Shown here one piece after another: positions 9,273 through 18,958 of a stretch of 64,000 nt of DNA (its first letter is position 1; every line of letters begins with the position of its first letter). The position numbers and the translations under genes were made by a program. The stretch is from Terriglobia bacterium (lineage in GTDB: Bacteria; Acidobacteriota; Terriglobia; JAIQFV01), in assembly GCA_028716525.1 (NCBI GenBank), contig JAQUPQ010000004.1:62001-126000 (forward strand). Direction: 5' to 3'. The notes beneath the pieces are model-generated. The model did not search any database, had not been told where the DNA came from, and saw only the letters and a list, made by a program, of their open reading frames with translations.

Positions 9273-11462
9273 ATGTCCTTAACTCAATTCATGCCCTTCG
9301 GTTTGGGACATTCCAAGCCGAAGCATTACCGCTCCATGGCTCAGGCGTTCTGGGAGAACCGCGATAACCTCTCTCATGGTTGGCGTGTGTTGCGCCATGG
9401 TGTGTGTGATGGCTGTTCACTGGGCCCCCGGGGTCTGCGGGATGACGTCATCCCGGGAGTCCATCTCTGCATGACGCGGCTCAATCTGCTGCGCCTGAAT
9501 ACCATGGGGGCAGTGCCGGACGAGGCTTTTTCCGATATCGAACAACTGCGCCGGCTTTCCAATGAGGAGCTGCACCGGCTGGGCCGCTTGCCTTATCCCA
9601 TGATCCGGCGGCGCGGCGATCGTGGTTTCACCCGCCTCTCCTGGAGCGCGGCAATGGAACAGATACGCGCAGAGCTTCAAAACATCCCTCCAAATCGCAC
9701 GGGTTTTTTTGCGACCTCGCGCGGGTTGACCAATGAGGCCTATTACACTTTTCAGAAACTGGCTCGCCTGTGGGGCACGAACAACATCGATTTGTGTTCG
9801 CGGCTCTGCCATGCCGCTTCGGTTTACGGATTGAAGGAGACCCTCGGAGTGGGCGCTCCCAGCTGCTCGCTCTCCGATTTTATTGGAACGGATCTTTTGG
9901 TCCTGTTTGGAACCGATCTGGCGAACAATCAACCGGTCACAACCAAATACATGCACTACGCGAAGAGGCAGGGTACGCGCATCGTGGTGGTTAATCCCAT
10001 GCGCGAACCGGCTCTGGAGCGTTATTGGGTACCTTCTGTACTCTCCAGTGCCGTGTTTGGAACCAAGTTGATGGACGATTTCTTTCAGGTCAACGTGGGC
10101 GGCGACCTGGCTTTTATCAACGGTGTCATCAAGCATTTGTTTGAGAAGGGCTGGCTGGATAGCGAGTTTATCGAAAAACATACGACCCATTTTGACGCCC
10201 TGCGGATGGAATTGAACCGACAACCCTGGGAAGCCTTGGAGTTGCAATCGGGGTTATCCCGTCAAGAGATGCTGCGGTTTGCGACCCTGTTCCACGAGGC
10301 TCGGACGGCGGTTCTCTGTTACAGCATGGGACTGACCCAACATGCCCACGGTGTCGACAACGTGAAGGCCATCGCCAATTTGGCGTTGTCGCGAGGAATG
10401 CTGGGACGCGAAAAGTGCGGAATCATGGCGATTCGCGGACACTCGGGCGTTCAAGGCGGAGGCGAATGCGGGGTCGATGCCGACAAATTTCCCGGTGGGT
10501 TCGAGGTGAATTCCGAGAATGCCCAACGCTTCACCGCATTGTGGCATCGCTCCATTCCCTCGGGCAAAGGATTAAAGACCGCCCAAATGATCGAGGCCGC
10601 CCATCGGGGAGAAATTGAAGCCTTGTACACCATCGGTGGGAATCTTCTGGAAACGATGCCCGACCGCGATTTCGTGCGGCAGGCCATCCAGCGTGTGAGG
10701 GTACGCATTCATCAGGACATTGTTCTCAACAGCTATGCCGTGTTTGATGATACCGAGTTGCTGATTCTGCTTCCCGGTCAAACACGCTATGAAAGTGGCG
10801 GGACCTCCACCTCGACTGAGCGGCGCATCCGATATTCTCCGAAAATTCCGGGACACGGGATGGCGGAAACATTGCCGGAGTGGGAAATACCCTGTCGCAT
10901 CGGCCAGACCCTCCTGCCGGATTGCAAAAATGAATTTCGTTATGCCGACGACGGAGAAATTCGCCGGGAAATGGCGCGCGCCATGCCGATGTACAAGGGG
11001 ATCGAAAATTTGAAGGAGGAAGGCGATAGTCTGCAGTGGGGCGGCCCTTTTCTACATCGTGGCGGCGTCTTTGAGAAGATGCCGCAAGGTCGCGCCCGAT
11101 TCGCTCCCTTGCGGCTTCCGCCTTGGGAGATACCGGTCGGGAAGTTTCTATTAACAACGCGTCGGGGAAAACAATTCAATTCCATGACGCAGGGATTTGA
11201 GGATTCCCTGGTGGGGGTGAAACGCCGGGATACTATTTTCATTTCACCTCAGGATGCAGAGAAGTTGGGTCTTGAGGAGGGGTGTCCTGTGGTGGTGCGT
11301 TCCCCGTGCGGATCCCTGCGTGGAGTGGCTCACCTCTGCGACACCAAACCCCGCAATCTCCAAGCCTATTGGCCGGAAGCCAATGTTCTCATCCCTCGGC
11401 GTTACGACCCCGTCTCCGGCGAGCCGGATTATAACTGTCTGGTCGAGGTGGTGAAAGATTAG
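9273..11462 (+). CDS. FdhF/YdeP-family molybdopterin oxidoreductase
   Basis: A 729-residue bis-MGD enzyme of the formate dehydrogenase alpha-like YdeP subgroup. The N-terminal CDGC (C45, C48) and HLC (C66) replace the four-cysteine cluster motif of classical FdhF, so any Fe-S site is atypical. Cys179 (CSRLCHAASVYG) stands where FdhF has selenocysteine and would ligate molybdenum. The molybdopterin-binding stretches (FGTDLANNQP, VVNPMREPALERYW) and the C-terminal guanine-dinucleotide domain (TRRGKQFNSMT, DAEKLGLEEG) are present. No twin-arginine signal is seen, so it is cytoplasmic. No partner electron-transfer subunit or fdhD is adjacent. The substrate is unknown: formate is possible, and an acid-resistance role is known for E. 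coli YdeP. Confidence 0.88.
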   Translation: MSLTQFMPFGLGHSKPKHYRSMAQAFWENRDNLSHGWRVLRHGVCDGCSLGPRGLRDDVIPGVHLCMTRLNLLRLNTMGAVPDEAFSDIEQLRRLSNEELHRLGRLPYPMIRRRGDRGFTRLSWSAAMEQIRAELQNIPPNRTGFFATSRGLTNEAYYTFQKLARLWGTNNIDLCSRLCHAASVYGLKETLGVGAPSCSLSDFIGTDLLVLFGTDLANNQPVTTKYMHYAKRQGTRIVVVNPMREPALERYWVPSVLSSAVFGTKLMDDFFQVNVGGDLAFINGVIKHLFEKGWLDSEFIEKHTTHFDALRMELNRQPWEALELQSGLSRQEMLRFATLFHEARTAVLCYSMGLTQHAHGVDNVKAIANLALSRGMLGREKCGIMAIRGHSGVQGGGECGVDADKFPGGFEVNSENAQRFTALWHRSIPSGKGLKTAQMIEAAHRGEIEALYTIGGNLLETMPDRDFVRQAIQRVRVRIHQDIVLNSYAVFDDTELLILLPGQTRYESGGTSTSTERRIRYSPKIPGHGMAETLPEWEIPCRIGQTLLPDCKNEFRYADDGEIRREMARAMPMYKGIENLKEEGDSLQWGGPFLHRGGVFEKMPQGRARFAPLRLPPWEIPVGKFLLTTRRGKQFNSMTQGFEDSLVGVKRRDTIFISPQDAEKLGLEEGCPVVVRSPCGSLRGVAHLCDTKPRNLQAYWPEANVLIPRRYDPVSGEPDYNCLVEVVKD

Positions 11463-11561
11463 CCGCCGGCCGATGAGATTGATCCTGTTGTCTGGACAGT
11501 TTTCCATAGCTGCTTTAAAATTTCGGTTTTGAATGTTGAAACCGGATGCGAGGAGCGCCGC

Positions 11562-12944
11562 TTGGCAAGTTTTTACATCATCAATTTTGGATGTCGTGCC
11601 ACGCAGGCCGATGGCGGCGAGATTGAACAGGCCCTGCGGGCCCAGCGCTACGTCAAGGCGAACGGGCTGGAAGACGCCAATGTCGTTGTGTTGAACACCT
11701 GTACGGTAACTGCAGCTGCCGACCGGGACGCGCGGCAGACGATCCGGCGCGTTCAGCGCCAGAATCCCACGGCCAAGATCGTGGTCACGGGCTGCTACGC
11801 TCAGCGCGCACCCGAGGAGATTCTGGAAATGCCCGGCGTCCACTTTGTGGTCGGGAATTCGCACAAGGATCGATTGGTCGAGATTGTCGATGCCCGATTG
11901 CAAGGCTTCGCGACTGAAGGCTCTCCTGTTCATGAGGGAACAGATCGAAACGAAGGCTTGTCCTGCACAGCCGAAGTTTATGTGGAAGGTTTCTCCCGGC
12001 GCGAGCGGATTCCCTTTGTTTCGCAAACGTTCTTTGGGGCGGCCGACCGAACCCGACCCTCCCTCAAGATCCAGGACGGATGCGATGCCAACTGCTCGTT
12101 TTGCATCATTCCCACGGTGCGCGGCCGCAGTCGAAGCTTGGACCCAATCGAGGTGAAAAAGCAGGTGGCTGCATTGGCGGCTCAAGGATACCGGGAGGTT
12201 GTGCTGTCGGGGATTCATCTTGGCAGCTATGGACGCGATCGTGGAGATGGATCGACACTGTTGAAACTTTTGGAATCGCTCGAGGAGATCGAAGAGCTGG
12301 GTCGAATCCGCCTCAGTTCCATCGAGCCGCTGGAAGTGAATGCCGCATTGATCTCTCACGTGGCTCAGTCGAAGAAATTTGCCAAACATTTCCACGTCCC
12401 GATGCAGAGTGGCGTTGATCGAATTTTGCGGGCCATGCGCCGGCCCTACACCTCGGCACAGTATGCGGAAGTGGTGTCGTCCATTCGTGAAAATATCCCG
12501 GATGCCGCCATTGGGGCCGACGTCATTACGGGGTTTCCCGGTGAGACGGAATTCGAGCATCGATCCACGCTCGAGTTCGTCGAAGCCTCTCCACTGACTT
12601 ATCTCCATGTGTTTTCGTTCTCACCGCGCCCCGGAACACCTGCCGCGTTGATGCGGGGCAGCATTGCGCCTGAGACGATGAAGCGCCGGAGCGGCGAGCT
12701 GCGGCAATTGGGACTGAAGAAAAAATTGGGGTTCCAGCAAGAGATGGTGGGGCGCATTCTGTCCGCAGTGACGCTGGATCGCGCAGGCAACGATTTGACG
12801 GAAGCGATGAGTAGCAATTTCCTCGAAATCAGGATTGAGGGTTCTCGGCTCGCACCCAACCTCTTCCTCGATGTGGAGGTGAAGGCCATTGAAAACAGCG
12901 TGCTCCTGGGAACAGTGCGGAAGGCGGGGCCTTCCGTGGTTTAA
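11562..12944 (+). CDS. mtaB: tRNA (t6A37) C2-methylthiotransferase MtaB
   Basis: A 460-residue methylthiotransferase. Three N-terminal cysteines of the UPF0004 domain (C11, C47, C78) hold the auxiliary cluster. The radical-SAM triad is C174, C178 and C181 (GCDANCSFC). The lead phrase FGCRATQADGGEIEQ is typical of the MtaB branch. It converts t6A37 to ms2t6A37 in tRNAs reading ANN codons. TTG 11562 is preferred because AGGAG lies 6 nt upstream and homologues start there; another in-frame TTG at 11529 lacks an SD. The C-terminal TRAM-like region appears shortened. A paralogue, miaB, lies at 60.4 kb. Confidence 0.9.
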   Translation: MASFYIINFGCRATQADGGEIEQALRAQRYVKANGLEDANVVVLNTCTVTAAADRDARQTIRRVQRQNPTAKIVVTGCYAQRAPEEILEMPGVHFVVGNSHKDRLVEIVDARLQGFATEGSPVHEGTDRNEGLSCTAEVYVEGFSRRERIPFVSQTFFGAADRTRPSLKIQDGCDANCSFCIIPTVRGRSRSLDPIEVKKQVAALAAQGYREVVLSGIHLGSYGRDRGDGSTLLKLLESLEEIEELGRIRLSSIEPLEVNAALISHVAQSKKFAKHFHVPMQSGVDRILRAMRRPYTSAQYAEVVSSIRENIPDAAIGADVITGFPGETEFEHRSTLEFVEASPLTYLHVFSFSPRPGTPAALMRGSIAPETMKRRSGELRQLGLKKKLGFQQEMVGRILSAVTLDRAGNDLTEAMSSNFLEIRIEGSRLAPNLFLDVEVKAIENSVLLGTVRKAGPSVV

Positions 12945-13013: not shown

Positions 13014-13222
13014 TTCAACAGGTTGCTGAAAAACCTAATTCAAGGAAAGTGATGCGAAAGTTTGGAGTGCGCCGCCTAGGGCGGCGCTTTGGATGGGGTT
13101 AGCAACCCTTTTGCTTCGGCCATCCCATCTTTCATGCCCTGTTTCAATGCGAGAATCCAAAGCGGTCCGCCTGGGCGGATTGCCGCCGCACTCTACAAAA
13201 TTGTTTTGCAGCAACCTATTAA
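13014..13222. mobile_element. MITE-like palindromic insertion element
   Basis: The ends are inverted copies of each other: left AACAGGTTGCTGAAAAAC (13017-13034), right TTGTTTTGCAGCAACCTATT (13201-13220). Inside each end sits a GC-rich palindromic unit in opposite orientation. One is GCGCCGCC-TAG-GGCGGCGC (13069-13087), followed by TTTGGAT; the other is at 13156-13194, preceded by ATCCAAAG. The roughly 209-bp element encodes no transposase. It fills most of the mtaB-pgeF interval (12945-13271), and its 3' part is read through by the upstream extension of the pgeF frame. Confidence 0.6.
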
Positions 13223-13271
13223 TCGTGCACTGAAATCCACCGCGTCAATCGACGGCAGGAGGCCCTGGCGA

Positions 13272-14072
13272 TTGTTTGAAGAATTAGAAAAAAACGGCTT
13301 AGTTATTCTTCAAGAAAAATCCCTGTCTGAGCTCCCGTGGCTACGGCACGGTTTTTCCACCCGTCCGGGAGGCGCGAGCGCTTTCCCGAAGGATTCCCTT
13401 AACCTTGGATTTGTGCCGGAGGACTCGCGAGATGCCGTCCTGGCCAATCGCAAGCTGTTTTATGAGGCCGTGGGAGTAACCGGCTTCGCGCATTTGCAAT
13501 TGCGCCAAGTGCATTCCGATCGGGTCCTGTGTGCGAATAATCTCGAAGATATCGAAACAAGAAATTCGGCCGATGCCGCCATCACGGGATTGCCGAAGTT
13601 GGCATTAACGGTCTTGACGGCCGATTGCGTGCCCGTGATTGTGGCCGATCCGGACCGTCATGTGATATCCGTAGTTCACGCCGGATGGCGCGGAACGCTG
13701 CAGCAGGTTCTGTACAAAACATTGGAGCGCCTTCACGCAGATTTTCAATGCAGCCCCGGGAATTTGCGGGTGGCCTTGGGTCCTTCGATTCGGGCGTGTT
13801 GTTATGAGGTGGAAAATGACGTTCGTGAGGCTTTCGAAACCGCAGAGATTTCCACCGAGCCGTGGTTCATCTCGATAGACGCGGCCTCTAAAAAATTTCG
13901 TATGGATTTGATAGCGGCGAACTTGGAGCAGCTGAAGTCCGCGGGAGTTCCACCGAGTAATGTCGCCGTAGCTCCTGATTGTACGGCCTGCCACACTGAA
14001 AAGTATTTTTCACATCGCCGGGAAGCAGGAAAAACAGGTCGCCTGATGGCGCTCGTGGCCATCAGCCCATAG
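13272..14072 (+). CDS. pgeF: Peptidoglycan editing factor / multicopper-type laccase-domain protein (YfiH)
   Basis: A 266-residue PgeF-family protein. The metal/nucleophile motifs LTADCVPVIV, HAGWRGT and GPSIRACCYEV, and the late DCTACH...FSHRR, are all present. The E. coli member removes L-Ser-containing errors from UDP-MurNAc peptides; others oxidise phenols or deaminate adenosine. TTG 13272 has AGGAGG 9 nt upstream and gives the usual family length. The open frame continues upstream to 13089 only because it crosses the MITE-like element. The next gene is 93 nt downstream. The family is secure; the exact substrate is not. Confidence 0.88.
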   Translation: MFEELEKNGLVILQEKSLSELPWLRHGFSTRPGGASAFPKDSLNLGFVPEDSRDAVLANRKLFYEAVGVTGFAHLQLRQVHSDRVLCANNLEDIETRNSADAAITGLPKLALTVLTADCVPVIVADPDRHVISVVHAGWRGTLQQVLYKTLERLHADFQCSPGNLRVALGPSIRACCYEVENDVREAFETAEISTEPWFISIDAASKKFRMDLIAANLEQLKSAGVPPSNVAVAPDCTACHTEKYFSHRREAGKTGRLMALVAISP

Positions 14073-14165: not shown

Positions 14166-15074
14166 ATGATCTCGAAATTTCAAGGAGTGATATTGGGAGC
14201 GGCTGTGGGGGATGCCCTATCGGCGCCCGTGCAGTTTCTGTCGCGTCGGGAAATTCAGGATCAGTACCAGGAAGTGCGCGACATGATGGGCGGCGGATGG
14301 CTCAATCTGCGGCAAGGCGAATTTTCGCATGACACTCAAATGATGTTGTGCACGCTGGAATCTATCCTGGAGTCGGGCCGGTTTGAGGTTGACCCCAGCA
14401 TTCAGAAGCTTCTTTTGTGGTACAAGAAACGGCCCAAGGGCATCGGCAAAACTACCCAGGAATCGCTCAAGCGGATCAGCAGGGGAGAATCGTGGAGGTC
14501 GGCTTCTCAGGAAGTGTATCGGAAACGGCCGCACATGAGCGCCGGGGATGGTGCCCTCATCCGATCATTACCGATCGCGTTGCGGTACACCTCGGATCTC
14601 AACTCCCTGGTCACACACTCCACGGACTCGGCCATGATTACTCACGCCGATCCCATGGCTGCAACCGGTGTGGTGTTGCTCAATATGATGATTTCGGAGC
14701 TCCTGCAGTCGACCCAGAAAGACCCCAGGCCGGTGTGTATGGACCGGCTTTTCGGCGCCCAGAACAATCTTTGGAAAAACATTTTTGATGAGATCGATTA
14801 CCTGGATGAAGACGATTTGATTGCTTCGGGTTATGTGGTCGACACCCTGCAGTCCGCCTTGTGGTGTTTTTTGAAAACCCGTAGTTTTGAAGAGGCCTTG
14901 ATCATGGCGGTCAATCGGGGAAACGATGTATACGCCCTCGCCGCGGTCACCGGTGCTCTTTCCGGAGCACATTATGGTGTTAAGAATATTCCATCACGTT
15001 GGTTGGACGCTTTGGAACATCGCGACGCTTTAATGGGACTCTCCGGAAAAATTTACGCCCTCATTCATCAATGA
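14166..15074 (+). CDS. ADP-ribosylglycohydrolase-family protein with depleted metal site
   Basis: A 302-residue member of the DraG/ARH fold. The N-terminal segment GVILGAAVGDALSAPVQF and the C-terminal VTGALSGAHYG are clearly of this family. The usual paired acidic ligands are changed. The first T/S-D-D site reads S-H-D (54-56, in FSHDTQMM). The second G-D-x-D-T site reads N-D-V-Y-A (253-257, in NRGNDVYALAA). One of two Asp is therefore lost at each site, plus the Thr. Removal of ADP-ribose may be weak or absent; it may bind ADP-ribosylated ligands or do something else. ATG 14166 starts at the conserved domain; an in-frame upstream start at 14094 is less likely. No partner ADP-ribosyltransferase is nearby. 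Confidence 0.8.
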   Translation: MISKFQGVILGAAVGDALSAPVQFLSRREIQDQYQEVRDMMGGGWLNLRQGEFSHDTQMMLCTLESILESGRFEVDPSIQKLLLWYKKRPKGIGKTTQESLKRISRGESWRSASQEVYRKRPHMSAGDGALIRSLPIALRYTSDLNSLVTHSTDSAMITHADPMAATGVVLLNMMISELLQSTQKDPRPVCMDRLFGAQNNLWKNIFDEIDYLDEDDLIASGYVVDTLQSALWCFLKTRSFEEALIMAVNRGNDVYALAAVTGALSGAHYGVKNIPSRWLDALEHRDALMGLSGKIYALIHQ

Positions 15075-15256: not shown

Positions 15257-18200
15257 GTGCTTCGCTTATCACGCATCCAAATGATCGGCTTCAAATCGTT
15301 TTGTGAGAAAGCCGAGATTATGTTTGCCGAAGGCGCCGGCGTAACCGCCATCGTCGGTCCCAACGGTTGCGGAAAATCCAATATCGCCGACGCCATCGCG
15401 TGGGTTTTGGGTGAGCAAAGCGTGAAAAGCTTGCGCGGCTCTTCCATGGAGGACGTTATCTTCAATGGAACACGTGAGCGCCAACCCATGGGCCTGGCGC
15501 AGGTGTCATTGACACTGGTCGACCCCGAATTTACGCGCGAATCTGTGGGCGAAGTATCCCCGGTGGAACAGGAGGAGATGTTTGAAGAAGCCGCCAGCCC
15601 GGCCGGTCAACTTTCGGGCAGTGAATCCGAACCAGCGGCTGTTGCACGGCGCCGAAAACGTTTTGAGCCCAAACCCGGAGAAGTGGTTGTCACACGCAAG
15701 CTCTACCGCTCCGGGGAAAGTGAGTATTACCTCAACGGTCGCCTGTGCCGCTTGCGGGACATTCAGGAATTATTTTTGGGGACGGGTTTGGGGCCCAATT
15801 CCTACGCCATTATCGAGCAGGGACGGGTGGGGCAGATCCTGAGTTCCAAGCCCATGGACCGGCGCATGTTGATCGAAGAAGCCGCCGGCACGACAAAATA
15901 CAAAGCCAAACGAAAATTGGCGGAAGCCAAATTGGAATCCGCCAAGCTGAACCTGTCGCGCGTAAACGACATCATCGAAGAAGTCACGCGGCAGTTGAAT
16001 TCGCTCAAACGACAGGCCGCCAAGGCCCGACGCTATCACGAGCTGCGCGAGGAGATGCGGGCGAAATTAACCGCCATCCTTTTCAGCCAACTCATTGAAT
16101 TCGAAGAAACCATTCAAAACACCCAACAGGAATTGGCGGCGGCCAGTTCCAAAGCCGAAGAATCACGCCAGACTTTACAGGCCCAGGAATCGGAGCAGCA
16201 GGCCACCCAACAGCGCAGTTTCGAACTGGAAGATTTATTGCGCCGCCAACAGGAAGAGCTGGCTGAAAATCATTTGCAGCTGGATCGGGCCCAGCATAAG
16301 AAGGTTTACAGCCACGAGCAACTGGGGGCGATTGAACAGCGGCTCGCCGATTTCGAAAAAGAACTCGGGGTTTTGGCGGAGCAGATCCAATCACGTCAAA
16401 CCGAGATCGATGTCAAACGCCAGGACGACGCCGGAATTCAAAACGAACTGGCTGCGGTTGAAGCGGAGACGGCTGAGAATGAAGCCGCAGTGGCCCTTTT
16501 GGGCGAGCAACATCAAGCCGGTGAAGTTTCTCTCAGCGCTCTCAGGGCCAAAGTGTTGGATACGGTCCAGCGCGCCGCCACTCTCAACAATCAAATTGTG
16601 CAGATTGATGACGCCGAAGCCCGTATGGCCGCACACGATCAACGCTTGCAGCGGGAATGGGCCGAAGCGCAATCCGAACAAGGGGAGCTCACGAAGTCGC
16701 AGACGCACTTGAAAGACTCCCTGCAGAGTGAAACCGCCGCATGGAAGGACGTGACCGCTGAATTACAGGCCCTTTCATCGGAATGTGAAGCGGCCCGTTC
16801 CGAACTGTCGGACCGCCAGACGCGTTGGGATGTCCTCAAGCAGCAACAAGCCGACGGATTGGCACGTCAACACTCCCTCGAAGAGATCGTCAAACACCAT
16901 GCTTACGTGGATGAAGGGGTGCGCCAGCTCTTGTCGGGGGAGGTGTCGCCACCATCCAGTACCTTCAAACCCCTCGGAATTCTCGCCGATTTTGTGGAAG
17001 TGGAATCGGAGTTTGAGGCCGGGATAGAAGAATTTCTCAAGGATGAGCTGGAGTTCATTCTGGTGGAAACGAGCGACCTGGCTCACCGCGGAATCGAGAT
17101 TCTTCGGAACCAGACGGGCGGACGTTCCACCTTCGTGGTGGCGCGCCGCGAAAGAATCGAACATGCGGCCTTGACGCCGCAGGAAAAAATACTCGGCGAG
17201 CAAGGTGTGGTGGCGACGGTCGCATCCAAAATCCGATTTGAAGGCCCGTTCGCCGCAATCGTCGATCAGATTCTCCCCGGTTTGTCGGATGCCTATGTGG
17301 TCCAATCGTTCGAGGCGGCCGACCGGCTTTCGACCCGCTACCCCGATGCCGTGTTTGTCACGATGGAGGGTGATGTCTTCCAGGGTTGCTGGATTCGAGG
17401 AGGCCGAAAGAGTTCTGTGGGGCCGCTCGCTCTGAAACGGGAGCTTCGTTCGTTGGCTTCAACCCTGGCCGGAATTGAGAAGGAGATCGTTCAAACGGAG
17501 AAGGACCGGGCCGATTTAAAAGAACGTATTGCGAATTTGGAAGCGACCATCCAATCCAGGACGGCACGGAAAATCGAGCTGGAGAAAGAGCAAGTCGTTC
17601 TGGATCATCAAACGCAGCAAATGGAATCGGATCTGGCCCGCGTTCTTCAAAAGGTGGCCCTGCTTGGATCGGAGCGTTCCCGGCTTGAAACGGAGCGTCA
17701 GGAGGCAAGAACCGCTCAAGCCACCATGCGCCGGGAATTGGAGGCCTGTCAGTCGGCGCAGCAATCCATCGATGCGGAAATTGCTGCCGTGACTCAATCG
17801 TTTGGGGCGTTAAAGGCGCAATCGGAATCAATCAACGCCCGGATTTCCGAGTTGAAATCCAGCCGGGCAGCGCTTTCGGAACGCAAGACCTCCAGTCAGA
17901 AGGTGCTGGATCGATTGGAAGAGCAGCTTCTGGAGGCGCGACAACGGCGAGAGCGTATCGAACAACAACAAGCCGCGGCGCTGGAAGAGCAACGGTCCTT
18001 GCGACTTTCCTTGGTGGAGACGGAGGCCGGGATAGCCCAGCTCGCTCAGAATCAAACCGATTTGGAGCAGAACATGACGACACGGCAAAGGGAAGCTGAA
18101 GAAAGCCGACGCCGTCTGTTGGAGCTGGAAGAACAATTGAAAGTGCAGCGTGAGATGCTTTCAGGCCTGATGGAAGCCCGATCGGGCATCGAAGTTCAGT

Positions 18201-18958
18201 TGGCCAAACAGGAGTCCGAACTGGCGCACGTCCGCCAAGCCAGTCAGCAGGAATTGGATCGGCCCTGGGAGGAGTTGCGCTTGCTGCAAACCACCCGACT
18301 CCAGGGAGAAGCGTTGTCGTTGGCCGAGGCCGAGTACGGCGAGATGCGGCAAAAGATTGAAAGTATGGGCGCCATCAATATGATGGCGCTGGAAGAGTAT
18401 GGAGAGTGTGAACAGCGCTTCAACTTTTTGAGCACTCAACGCAAAGATCTTCTGGATTCGATTGCCGATACCATCCAGACCATCCAGGAAATTGAAACCG
18501 TTTCGCGCCAGCAGTTCCAGGAAGCCTTTGAATGCATCAATGAATACTTCCGGGAAACCTTCAAGCAGCTGTTCGGCGGCGGCTCCGGTTCCATGGAATT
18601 GACCGACGCCACGGACCTCCAGCAGAGCGGCATTGATCTGCAAGTGCAGCCTCCGGGGAAAAAGCTGCAGAACGTGTTGTTGCTTTCCGGAGGAGAGAAG
18701 GCGTTGACGGCGATCGCGCTGCTGTTGGCCATCTTTCGCTATCAACCCAGCCCCTTCTGTGTGCTGGATGAAGTGGATGCGCCGCTGGATGAAGCCAATG
18801 TGGACCGTTTTTCACGCATGATTGCCACCCTGAGCGGCGAAACACACTTCATCGTCATCACCCACAACAAGAAAACCATGGAAATTGCCCGCGCCATGTA
18901 CGGCGTGACCATGCAGGAAGCCGGAGTTTCGAAGTTGGTTTCGGTTCGATTCGAGTAG
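15257..18958 (+). CDS. smc: Chromosome partition protein SMC
   Basis: A 1233-residue condensin ATPase. Walker A is at 34-41 (GPNGCGKS). Two long Glu/Gln-rich coiled coils flank a hinge (LGILADFVEVESEFEAG to MEGDVFQGCWIRGG). The C-terminal head has the signature LLSGGEKALTAIALL and Walker B CVLDEVDAPLDEANVDRF. Between the first strands of the N-terminal head there is an acidic/serine-rich insertion of about 40 residues (around residues 98-140). The start GTG 15257 follows AAAGG. It would act with ScpA/ScpB, which are not in the window, and with the ParB system at 58 kb, to compact and segregate the chromosome. Confidence 0.97.
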   Translation: MLRLSRIQMIGFKSFCEKAEIMFAEGAGVTAIVGPNGCGKSNIADAIAWVLGEQSVKSLRGSSMEDVIFNGTRERQPMGLAQVSLTLVDPEFTRESVGEVSPVEQEEMFEEAASPAGQLSGSESEPAAVARRRKRFEPKPGEVVVTRKLYRSGESEYYLNGRLCRLRDIQELFLGTGLGPNSYAIIEQGRVGQILSSKPMDRRMLIEEAAGTTKYKAKRKLAEAKLESAKLNLSRVNDIIEEVTRQLNSLKRQAAKARRYHELREEMRAKLTAILFSQLIEFEETIQNTQQELAAASSKAEESRQTLQAQESEQQATQQRSFELEDLLRRQQEELAENHLQLDRAQHKKVYSHEQLGAIEQRLADFEKELGVLAEQIQSRQTEIDVKRQDDAGIQNELAAVEAETAENEAAVALLGEQHQAGEVSLSALRAKVLDTVQRAATLNNQIVQIDDAEARMAAHDQRLQREWAEAQSEQGELTKSQTHLKDSLQSETAAWKDVTAELQALSSECEAARSELSDRQTRWDVLKQQQADGLARQHSLEEIVKHHAYVDEGVRQLLSGEVSPPSSTFKPLGILADFVEVESEFEAGIEEFLKDELEFILVETSDLAHRGIEILRNQTGGRSTFVVARRERIEHAALTPQEKILGEQGVVATVASKIRFEGPFAAIVDQILPGLSDAYVVQSFEAADRLSTRYPDAVFVTMEGDVFQGCWIRGGRKSSVGPLALKRELRSLASTLAGIEKEIVQTEKDRADLKERIANLEATIQSRTARKIELEKEQVVLDHQTQQMESDLARVLQKVALLGSERSRLETERQEARTAQATMRRELEACQSAQQSIDAEIAAVTQSFGALKAQSESINARISELKSSRAALSERKTSSQKVLDRLEEQLLEARQRRERIEQQQAAALEEQRSLRLSLVETEAGIAQLAQNQTDLEQNMTTRQREAEESRRRLLELEEQLKVQREMLSGLMEARSGIEVQLAKQESELAHVRQASQQELDRPWEELRLLQTTRLQGEALSLAEAEYGEMRQKIESMGAINMMALEEYGECEQRFNFLSTQRKDLLDSIADTIQTIQEIETVSRQQFQEAFECINEYFRETFKQLFGGGSGSMELTDATDLQQSGIDLQVQPPGKKLQNVLLLSGGEKALTAIALLLAIFRYQPSPFCVLDEVDAPLDEANVDRFSRMIATLSGETHFIVITHNKKTMEIARAMYGVTMQEAGVSKLVSVRFE

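Follow-up and report, generated by a model that had tools for sequence, protein, structure and literature searches.

The ARH gene and its neighbours

The 64,000-nucleotide stretch of DNA analysed here, which we call the window, comes from a Terriglobia bacterium of the Acidobacteriota and carries a block of housekeeping genes in the order mtaB, pgeF, a gene for a protein of the DraG-like ADP-ribosylhydrolase fold (the ARH gene), smc, purC, cvpA, a Fis-family gene and lepB (Table 1); the names mtaB, cvpA and lepB were assigned by eye over Pfam matches. The window genome (G000) is a draft assembly of 4.2 Mb in 104 contigs. Two further Acidobacteriota genomes of the same family, G001 and G002, which are all the family genomes in our search for relatives, encode an ARH orthologue with 71% identity to the window protein and share the gene order, with the Fis-family gene present in G002 and absent from the list of open reading frames of G001. 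In all three genomes pgeF directly precedes the ARH gene, and no other gene adjoins it in all three, at distances of 93, 55 and 93 nt in the window, G001 and G002. Because this adjacency is conserved with gaps of 55-93 nt, the ARH gene is probably co-transcribed with pgeF.

Table 1. Features discussed in the text (window positions unless a contig or locus is named)
Feature	Position	Strand	Remarks
Molybdopterin oxidoreductase gene	9273-11462		
mtaB-like radical SAM methylthiotransferase gene	11529..12944	+	PF00919 and PF04055; syntenic
pgeF	13089..14072	+	PF02578, 242.7 bits; immediately upstream of the ARH gene
ARH gene, DraG-like ADP-ribosylhydrolase-fold CDS	14166..15074	+	302 aa; probable pseudoenzyme
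Q23, replacing the Glu-flap glutamate (DraG E28)	14232..14234	+	from alignment columns
S54-H55-D56, replacing T-D-D (DraG 59-61)	14325..14333	+	S-D-D in both orthologues
G92, replacing DraG catalytic D97	14439..14441	+	G in all three orthologues
D128, replacing Asn of the G-N-G loop	14547..14549	+	N in both orthologues
D254-V-Y256-A257, replacing D-x-D-T (DraG 243-246)	14925..14936	+	identical in three orthologues
smc	15257..18958	+	PF02463 and PF06470; syntenic, downstream of the ARH gene
Gene between ARH gene and smc, G001	L073:7960-9015	opposite	
Gene between ARH gene and smc, G002	L074:8489-9655	opposite	
Macrodomain gene, window genome	G000:C6:77302-77667		
Macrodomain gene, G001	G001:C25:52016-52381		
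Macrodomain gene, G002	G002:C22:55383-55745		

The block is not identical in every detail. An acpS-like gene lies beside pgeF on the opposite strand in G001 and G002 (PF01648, 73.8 and 71.4 bits), and both genomes have an extra gene between the ARH gene and smc; that of G001 matches S1/P1 nuclease at 20 bits (cut-off 29.5) and that of G002 has no match. A molybdopterin oxidoreductase gene stands in the window between a rhodanese-like gene and mtaB, two genes that adjoin in G002; in G001 none is listed there.

The PF03747 profile covers the ARH protein over its full length with 231.1 bits (E 2.9e-68, curated cut-off 26.2), and its start, MISKFQG, is common to both orthologues. The initial annotation had described an ADP-ribosylglycohydrolase relative lying between pgeF and smc in a housekeeping region; this profile match to the open reading frame, the Pfam matches of the neighbours and the order common to the three genomes bear it out. 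An AlphaFold2 model built with 47 sequences has a mean pLDDT of 96.2 and a pTM of 0.94. In a structure search with this predicted model the highest match was the Tri1 immunity protein 6drh (Z 42.1, 1.7 Å over 287 residues), which is best counted as tied with DraG 2woc (Z 41.3, 1.9 Å over 286 residues, 32% identity); Lmo0067 (8za7) followed at Z 40.0. Z values of 31-42 against DraG, ARH1 and ARH3 structures, together with a PF03747 score above cut-off, assign the protein to the ARH fold. The more specific models are less generous: the DraG equivalog TIGR02662 gives 194.6, 209.6 and 196.3 bits in the three genomes, below its equivalog cut-off of 337.05, and the NCBIfam Tri1 model gives 162.2 bits for the window protein, under its cut-off of 490. 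PF03747 is single-copy in the window genome, G001 and G002 alike (3/3), which leaves unsupported the idea of a pseudoenzyme that regulates an active paralogue.

Active-site residues

The ligand columns were set by alignment with DraG 2woc and 3g9d, which we take to be the R. rubrum and A. brasilense proteins, with the Tri1 immunity protein 6dre and with Lmo0067 8za7; DraG numbering is the 2woc chain position minus 5. The alignment has 69 rows, and column statistics refer to the 66 that are not orthologues. Four rows (L008, L009, L011 and L012) were left out because too little of the profile was covered, and one duplicate of the window sequence was removed from every count.

Active ARH and DraG hydrolases hold a binuclear metal site with T/S-D-D and D-x-D-T/S. 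The window protein has S-H-D and D-V-Y-A in these places, and the orthologues S-D-D and D-V-Y-A. Within the first motif T59 becomes S54, a conservative change (S in 10/66 other rows), D60 becomes H55 and D61 is retained as D56; the D60 column is D in 64/66 rows and the D61 column in 54/66. H55 is private to the window genome, with D in both G001 and G002. In the second motif D243 is retained as D254 (D in 50/66), whereas D245 is replaced by Y256 in a column that is D in 63 of the 66 rows and Y in none, and T246 by A257 where 62/66 rows have T or S and only 2/66 have A. Since the D60, D245 and T246 columns are near-invariant in the other rows, these replacements are not to be put down to chance.

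Further changes surround the metal site. The flap glutamate of active hydrolases is Q23 in all three orthologues (codons CAG, CAA and CAA); its column is E in 52/66 other rows and Q in three, and those three also lack a metal Asp. The DraG-specific Asp97 is G92 in 3/3 orthologues. In the passages of PMC7050489 drawn on here, Asp97 is called crucial in DraG and is described as absent from active ARH1 and ARH3, while E28 can be changed in DraG with minor effect and its counterpart is crucial for ARH3. The D97 column is D in 42/66 other rows and G in 10, nine of which have all four metal Asp intact. G92 alone therefore proves little; it appears to be the weakest of the changes, carrying little weight outside a strict comparison with DraG. 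The adenine contact E121 of DraG is H, H and Q in the three orthologues, and E in just 8/66 other rows. Asp97 and Glu121 were both considered as proof of inactivity, and both are weakened by these counts. D128 is confined to the window protein, in a column that is N in 46/66 other rows and D in 0/66.

Other parts of the cleft are kept: the clade retains DraG His158 together with the G-x-G...R loop, and the Tyr212 column is Y or F, so that the cleft is not simply ruined. The changes also fall preferentially on catalytic positions. In 55 site-intact relatives 26 columns reach a conservation of 90% or more; of these the clade alters 4/6 catalytic columns against 3/20 others (Fisher p 0.028). This is moderate support, given that possession of the four Asp was what selected the 55 rows, a choice that favours the test.

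The initial annotation had listed the losses as S-H-D and D-V-Y-A, that is, two of four Asp and one Thr, and had left open whether an alignment would move them. The DraG, Tri1 immunity and Lmo0067 columns put them where it did, and its list is right for the window genome; it passed over Q23 and G92, however, and of the altered residues whose conservation it wished to see measured Y256 and A257 recur in 3/3 orthologues, while the change to H55 does not.

Orthologues, selection and ancestry

Q23, S54, G92, Y256 and A257 are common to the three orthologues, and H55 and D128 are found in the window protein only. The window lineage has gone further than its orthologues, though the proteins are 71% identical. 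Synonymous codons differ among the three genomes at Q23, S54, G92 and Y256; the same odd residues in different synonymous codons indicate that the residue itself is held.

The ARH gene is under purifying selection and is not decaying, as its dN/dS of 0.108 between G001 and G002 demonstrates; this pair alone was used, because comparisons with the window are at or near saturation at synonymous sites. For the same pair the neighbours give 0.014 (cvpA), 0.067 (lepB), 0.084 (smc), 0.114 (purC), 0.151 (mtaB) and 0.262 (pgeF). The amino acid identity between window and G001 is 0.709 for ARH; the neighbours have 0.475 (pgeF), 0.641 (mtaB), 0.619 (smc), 0.622 (cvpA), 0.705 (lepB) and 0.748 (purC). For the G001-G002 pair the ARH value is 0.871, higher than that of pgeF (0.780) and mtaB (0.834) and lower than that of smc (0.892), purC (0.890), lepB (0.925) and cvpA (0.989). 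The lid segment 198-222, where the three orthologues agree at 20/25 positions, was considered as a specially conserved region and dropped when a permutation showed such agreement to be expected (P 0.998); clade-specific residues are nonetheless numerous at 200-215, a stretch that varies across the wider family.

Gene decay or errors in the sequencing could be suspected from an assembly in 104 contigs in which H55 and D128 occur in one genome only. Such an explanation has next to no probability, however: the frame is open in all three genomes, the dN/dS is low at the value given above, and the codons of the two private residues (CAT against GAC for H55, GAT against AAC for D128) are each two bases apart, one of the two changes being synonymous in kind. 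For the shared losses Y256, A257, Q23 and G92, present in three genomes, it is refuted.

Among 399 genomes of the class and 396 of the phylum, each set an even sample of a larger group, no further match was better than E 4.1e-52, and a search of named genomes for further orthologues returned, besides G002's own record, just a distant Treponema protein. A phage or plasmid origin was rejected, as all 117 matching plasmid records and all 37 phage records are below 60% identity; for each kind the 20 records listed range over 26-40%. In the tree the clade is long-stemmed, with a support of 100/99, and sits beside DraG at an unsupported 49/81. All six relatives examined from outside the phylum keep TDD and DxDT; they comprise 3/117 haloarchaeal plasmid proteins (at most 39.5% identity), 1/37 phage proteins (Erwinia) and 2/2 viral contigs. 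Because these six are intact, an active ancestor with later loss would be the simpler reading of this unrooted tree.

The erosion is not confined to the window clade. At least one metal Asp is missing in 20/63 aligned Acidobacteriota rows, the three rows of the window clade included; since the eroded clade itself served as the query from which the best-matching rows were taken, the fraction is not an unbiased share. On a tree of 67 rows, from which two more, one of them partial and the other a short Treponema sequence, were left out, absence of a metal Asp needs at least four state changes, a count by which loss and regain are indistinguishable. One clade of eight (group f41: L048, L051, L055, L058, L059, L061, L064 and L067) lacks D243 throughout and shows graded erosion, up to the loss of all four metal Asp in L064 and L067. 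Another, of seven (groups f90 and f45: L045, L047, L050, L053, L056, L062 and L063), lacks D243 and has I or K for the flap Glu. The bridging D245 is lost outside the window clade just in L059 (A), L064 (N) and L067 (A), of 69 rows.

Consequences for catalysis and binding

The losses can be read against human ARH3, whose numbering was transferred by motif (T76-D77-D78, D314-x-D316-T317). According to the relevant passages of PMC8141533, T76, D77, D78 and D316 hold Mg-A and D314, D316 and T317 hold Mg-B; each of the mutants D77A, D78A, D314A and D316A is without serine de-MARylation and impaired in PAR hydrolysis; D77A loses Mg-A and is inactive, binding ADP-ribose 23-fold tighter; and D314A loses Mg-B, with an affinity for ADP-ribose that is 44-fold weaker. 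By motif, one of three Mg-B protein ligands would be left in the clade, the Asp bridging both metals being lost, and of the Mg-A ligands 3/4 in the orthologues (S-D-D) and 2/4 in the window (S, D). Judged from the alignment, each of the three orthologues has a metal site II without bridging Asp, Thr or flap Glu. From these losses, read against the ARH3 and DraG mutants, hydrolysis by the clade proteins is unlikely and binding of ADP-ribose through metals doubtful.

We consider it probable that the window protein has kept a DraG-like ADP-ribosylhydrolase fold without its chemistry and is maintained as a pseudoenzyme, probably as a binding or scaffold protein. The window clade combines lost metal residues with a conserved protein, and the reading draws on the three orthologues in our sample. 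In such a protein the damage to metal site II (bridging Asp, Thr and Glu flap) would abolish hydrolysis, site I would be damaged as well in the window lineage, Tyr256 would stand where the metal-bridging aspartate was, and the old substrate cleft may be reused in a binding, scaffold or regulatory role. The pseudo-hydrolase proposed in the initial annotation is thereby well supported: an orthologue with an intact site at the same locus would have spoken against it, and those found there share Y256, A257, Q23 and G92.

Against this stands the possibility that one metal is still bound, by D56 and D254 and, in the orthologues, S54-D55-D56, with His55 as a possible ligand. An enzyme with one metal or an altered one, keeping site I, giving Tyr256 and Gln23 new roles and carrying out another reaction on a ribose-containing substrate, would fit the retention of S54, D56 and D254 in all three orthologues, the octahedral Mg-A that ARH3 D314A reportedly keeps (PMC8141533, in part) and the invariance in the clade of D-V-Y-A, which has differing synonymous Val and Tyr codons, as if selected. 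We nevertheless hold it to be unlikely, with the ligand bridging both metals gone, a position 55 that is D in two orthologues and H in the third, which would be strange in a catalytic ligand, and all four single-Asp mutants of ARH3 devoid of de-MARylation. A tentative and rather unlikely extension is that the invariant cleft of Q23, S54, G92 and D-V-Y-A is a newly built site and no ruin, and that DraG-like proteins of Acidobacteriota may repeatedly have abandoned the hydrolysis of ADP-ribose and been rebuilt for another ligand or reaction, here in a protein of the pgeF-smc block that possibly acts with PgeF.

A reader that binds ADP-ribose or an ADP-ribosylated protein without cleaving it had also been suggested. 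The change D55H on its own would favour this, position 55 being the motif equivalent of the tighter-binding ARH3 D77A, and His158 and Tyr212 (Y/F here) are retained. A macrodomain gene is present once in each of the three genomes, on contigs other than that of the ARH gene. The suggestion is weakened because the site that bears the affinity is the most damaged: it is Mg-B, whose loss cost ARH3 44-fold (PMC8141533, in part), that is stripped of bridging Asp, Thr and flap Glu, which makes a plain ADP-ribose reader less likely. The H/H/Q at the E121 contact points the same way and counts for little. The DarT and KptA families were found in none of the three genomes, in searches with positive profile controls; DRAT and ADPrib_exo_Tox were likewise found in 0/3, which says little, as 0/14 DRAT controls matched and those of ADPrib_exo_Tox were silent too. 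Taken together, we regard a reader as quite improbable.

None of the eight window neighbours checked with Pfam is an ADP-ribosyltransferase, in line with the initial annotation, and PADLOC returned no match, so that membership of a defence system was set aside. These neighbours bear on an orphan immunity protein, which would cover an ADP-ribosyltransferase toxin without catalysis. The tied top match to 6drh and the score with the NCBIfam Tri1 model, even under its cut-off, are consistent with one, but Tri1-type proteins have a transferase toxin gene next to them, and here the neighbours are pgeF, mtaB, smc, purC and the like, a housekeeping block within which the gene is inherited. The N-terminal extension of the Tri1 immunity protein covers the toxin; the ARH protein lacks it, 6dre aligning from residue 68-70 onward. 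An orphan immunity protein is thus very improbable.

Comparison with known systems

A protein of this kind would be named a hydrolase by family-based annotation, which is probably wrong, and other members of the family in Acidobacteriota call for similar care (the 20/63 rows above, from a biased sample). Pseudo-ADP-ribosylhydrolases are described for vertebrates (ADPRHL1); among the titles and abstract openings listed in searches of open-access literature, none describes a bacterial example. The bacterial ARH-like activity on RNA ends presented in the parts of PMC11833690 cited here is an activity, not a pseudoenzyme. Small, single-copy, well-folded and conserved, and with two orthologues one step less eroded, the window protein offers a convenient test of how an ARH cleft may be reused.

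With DraG it shares the fold, a TIGR02662 match (194.6 bits) and a neighbouring, unsupported place in the tree. It differs in lacking E28, D60 (in the window alone), D97, D245 and T246 and in falling far under 337 bits; DraT was found in none of the three genomes, in a search whose control was silent. The Tri1 immunity proteins (6dre, 6drh) and Lmo0067 (8za7) are alike in fold, tied or nearly so with DraG, but have T/S-D-D and D-x-D-S/T intact and, going by their PDB titles, belong to toxin-immunity pairs. The ARH fold also recurs in large assemblies, in mt-SAF23 (6sga, Z 26.2) and ARHL (8xks and 8xqw, Z 36.2), which by their PDB titles are parts of eukaryotic organelle machines.

The closest parallel is vertebrate ADPRHL1 (ARH2), also a PF03747 protein, which has lost metal Asp (3/4 in mammals) and is nonetheless conserved and needed, its old cleft being required without catalysis as far as the consulted sections of PMC7390403 describe it. 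The residues lost are others, and ADPRHL1 belongs to the vertebrate heart and has a di-arginine loop, whereas the window protein is bacterial, DraG-like and encoded in a housekeeping block. We suggest a parallel to ADPRHL1, short of membership.
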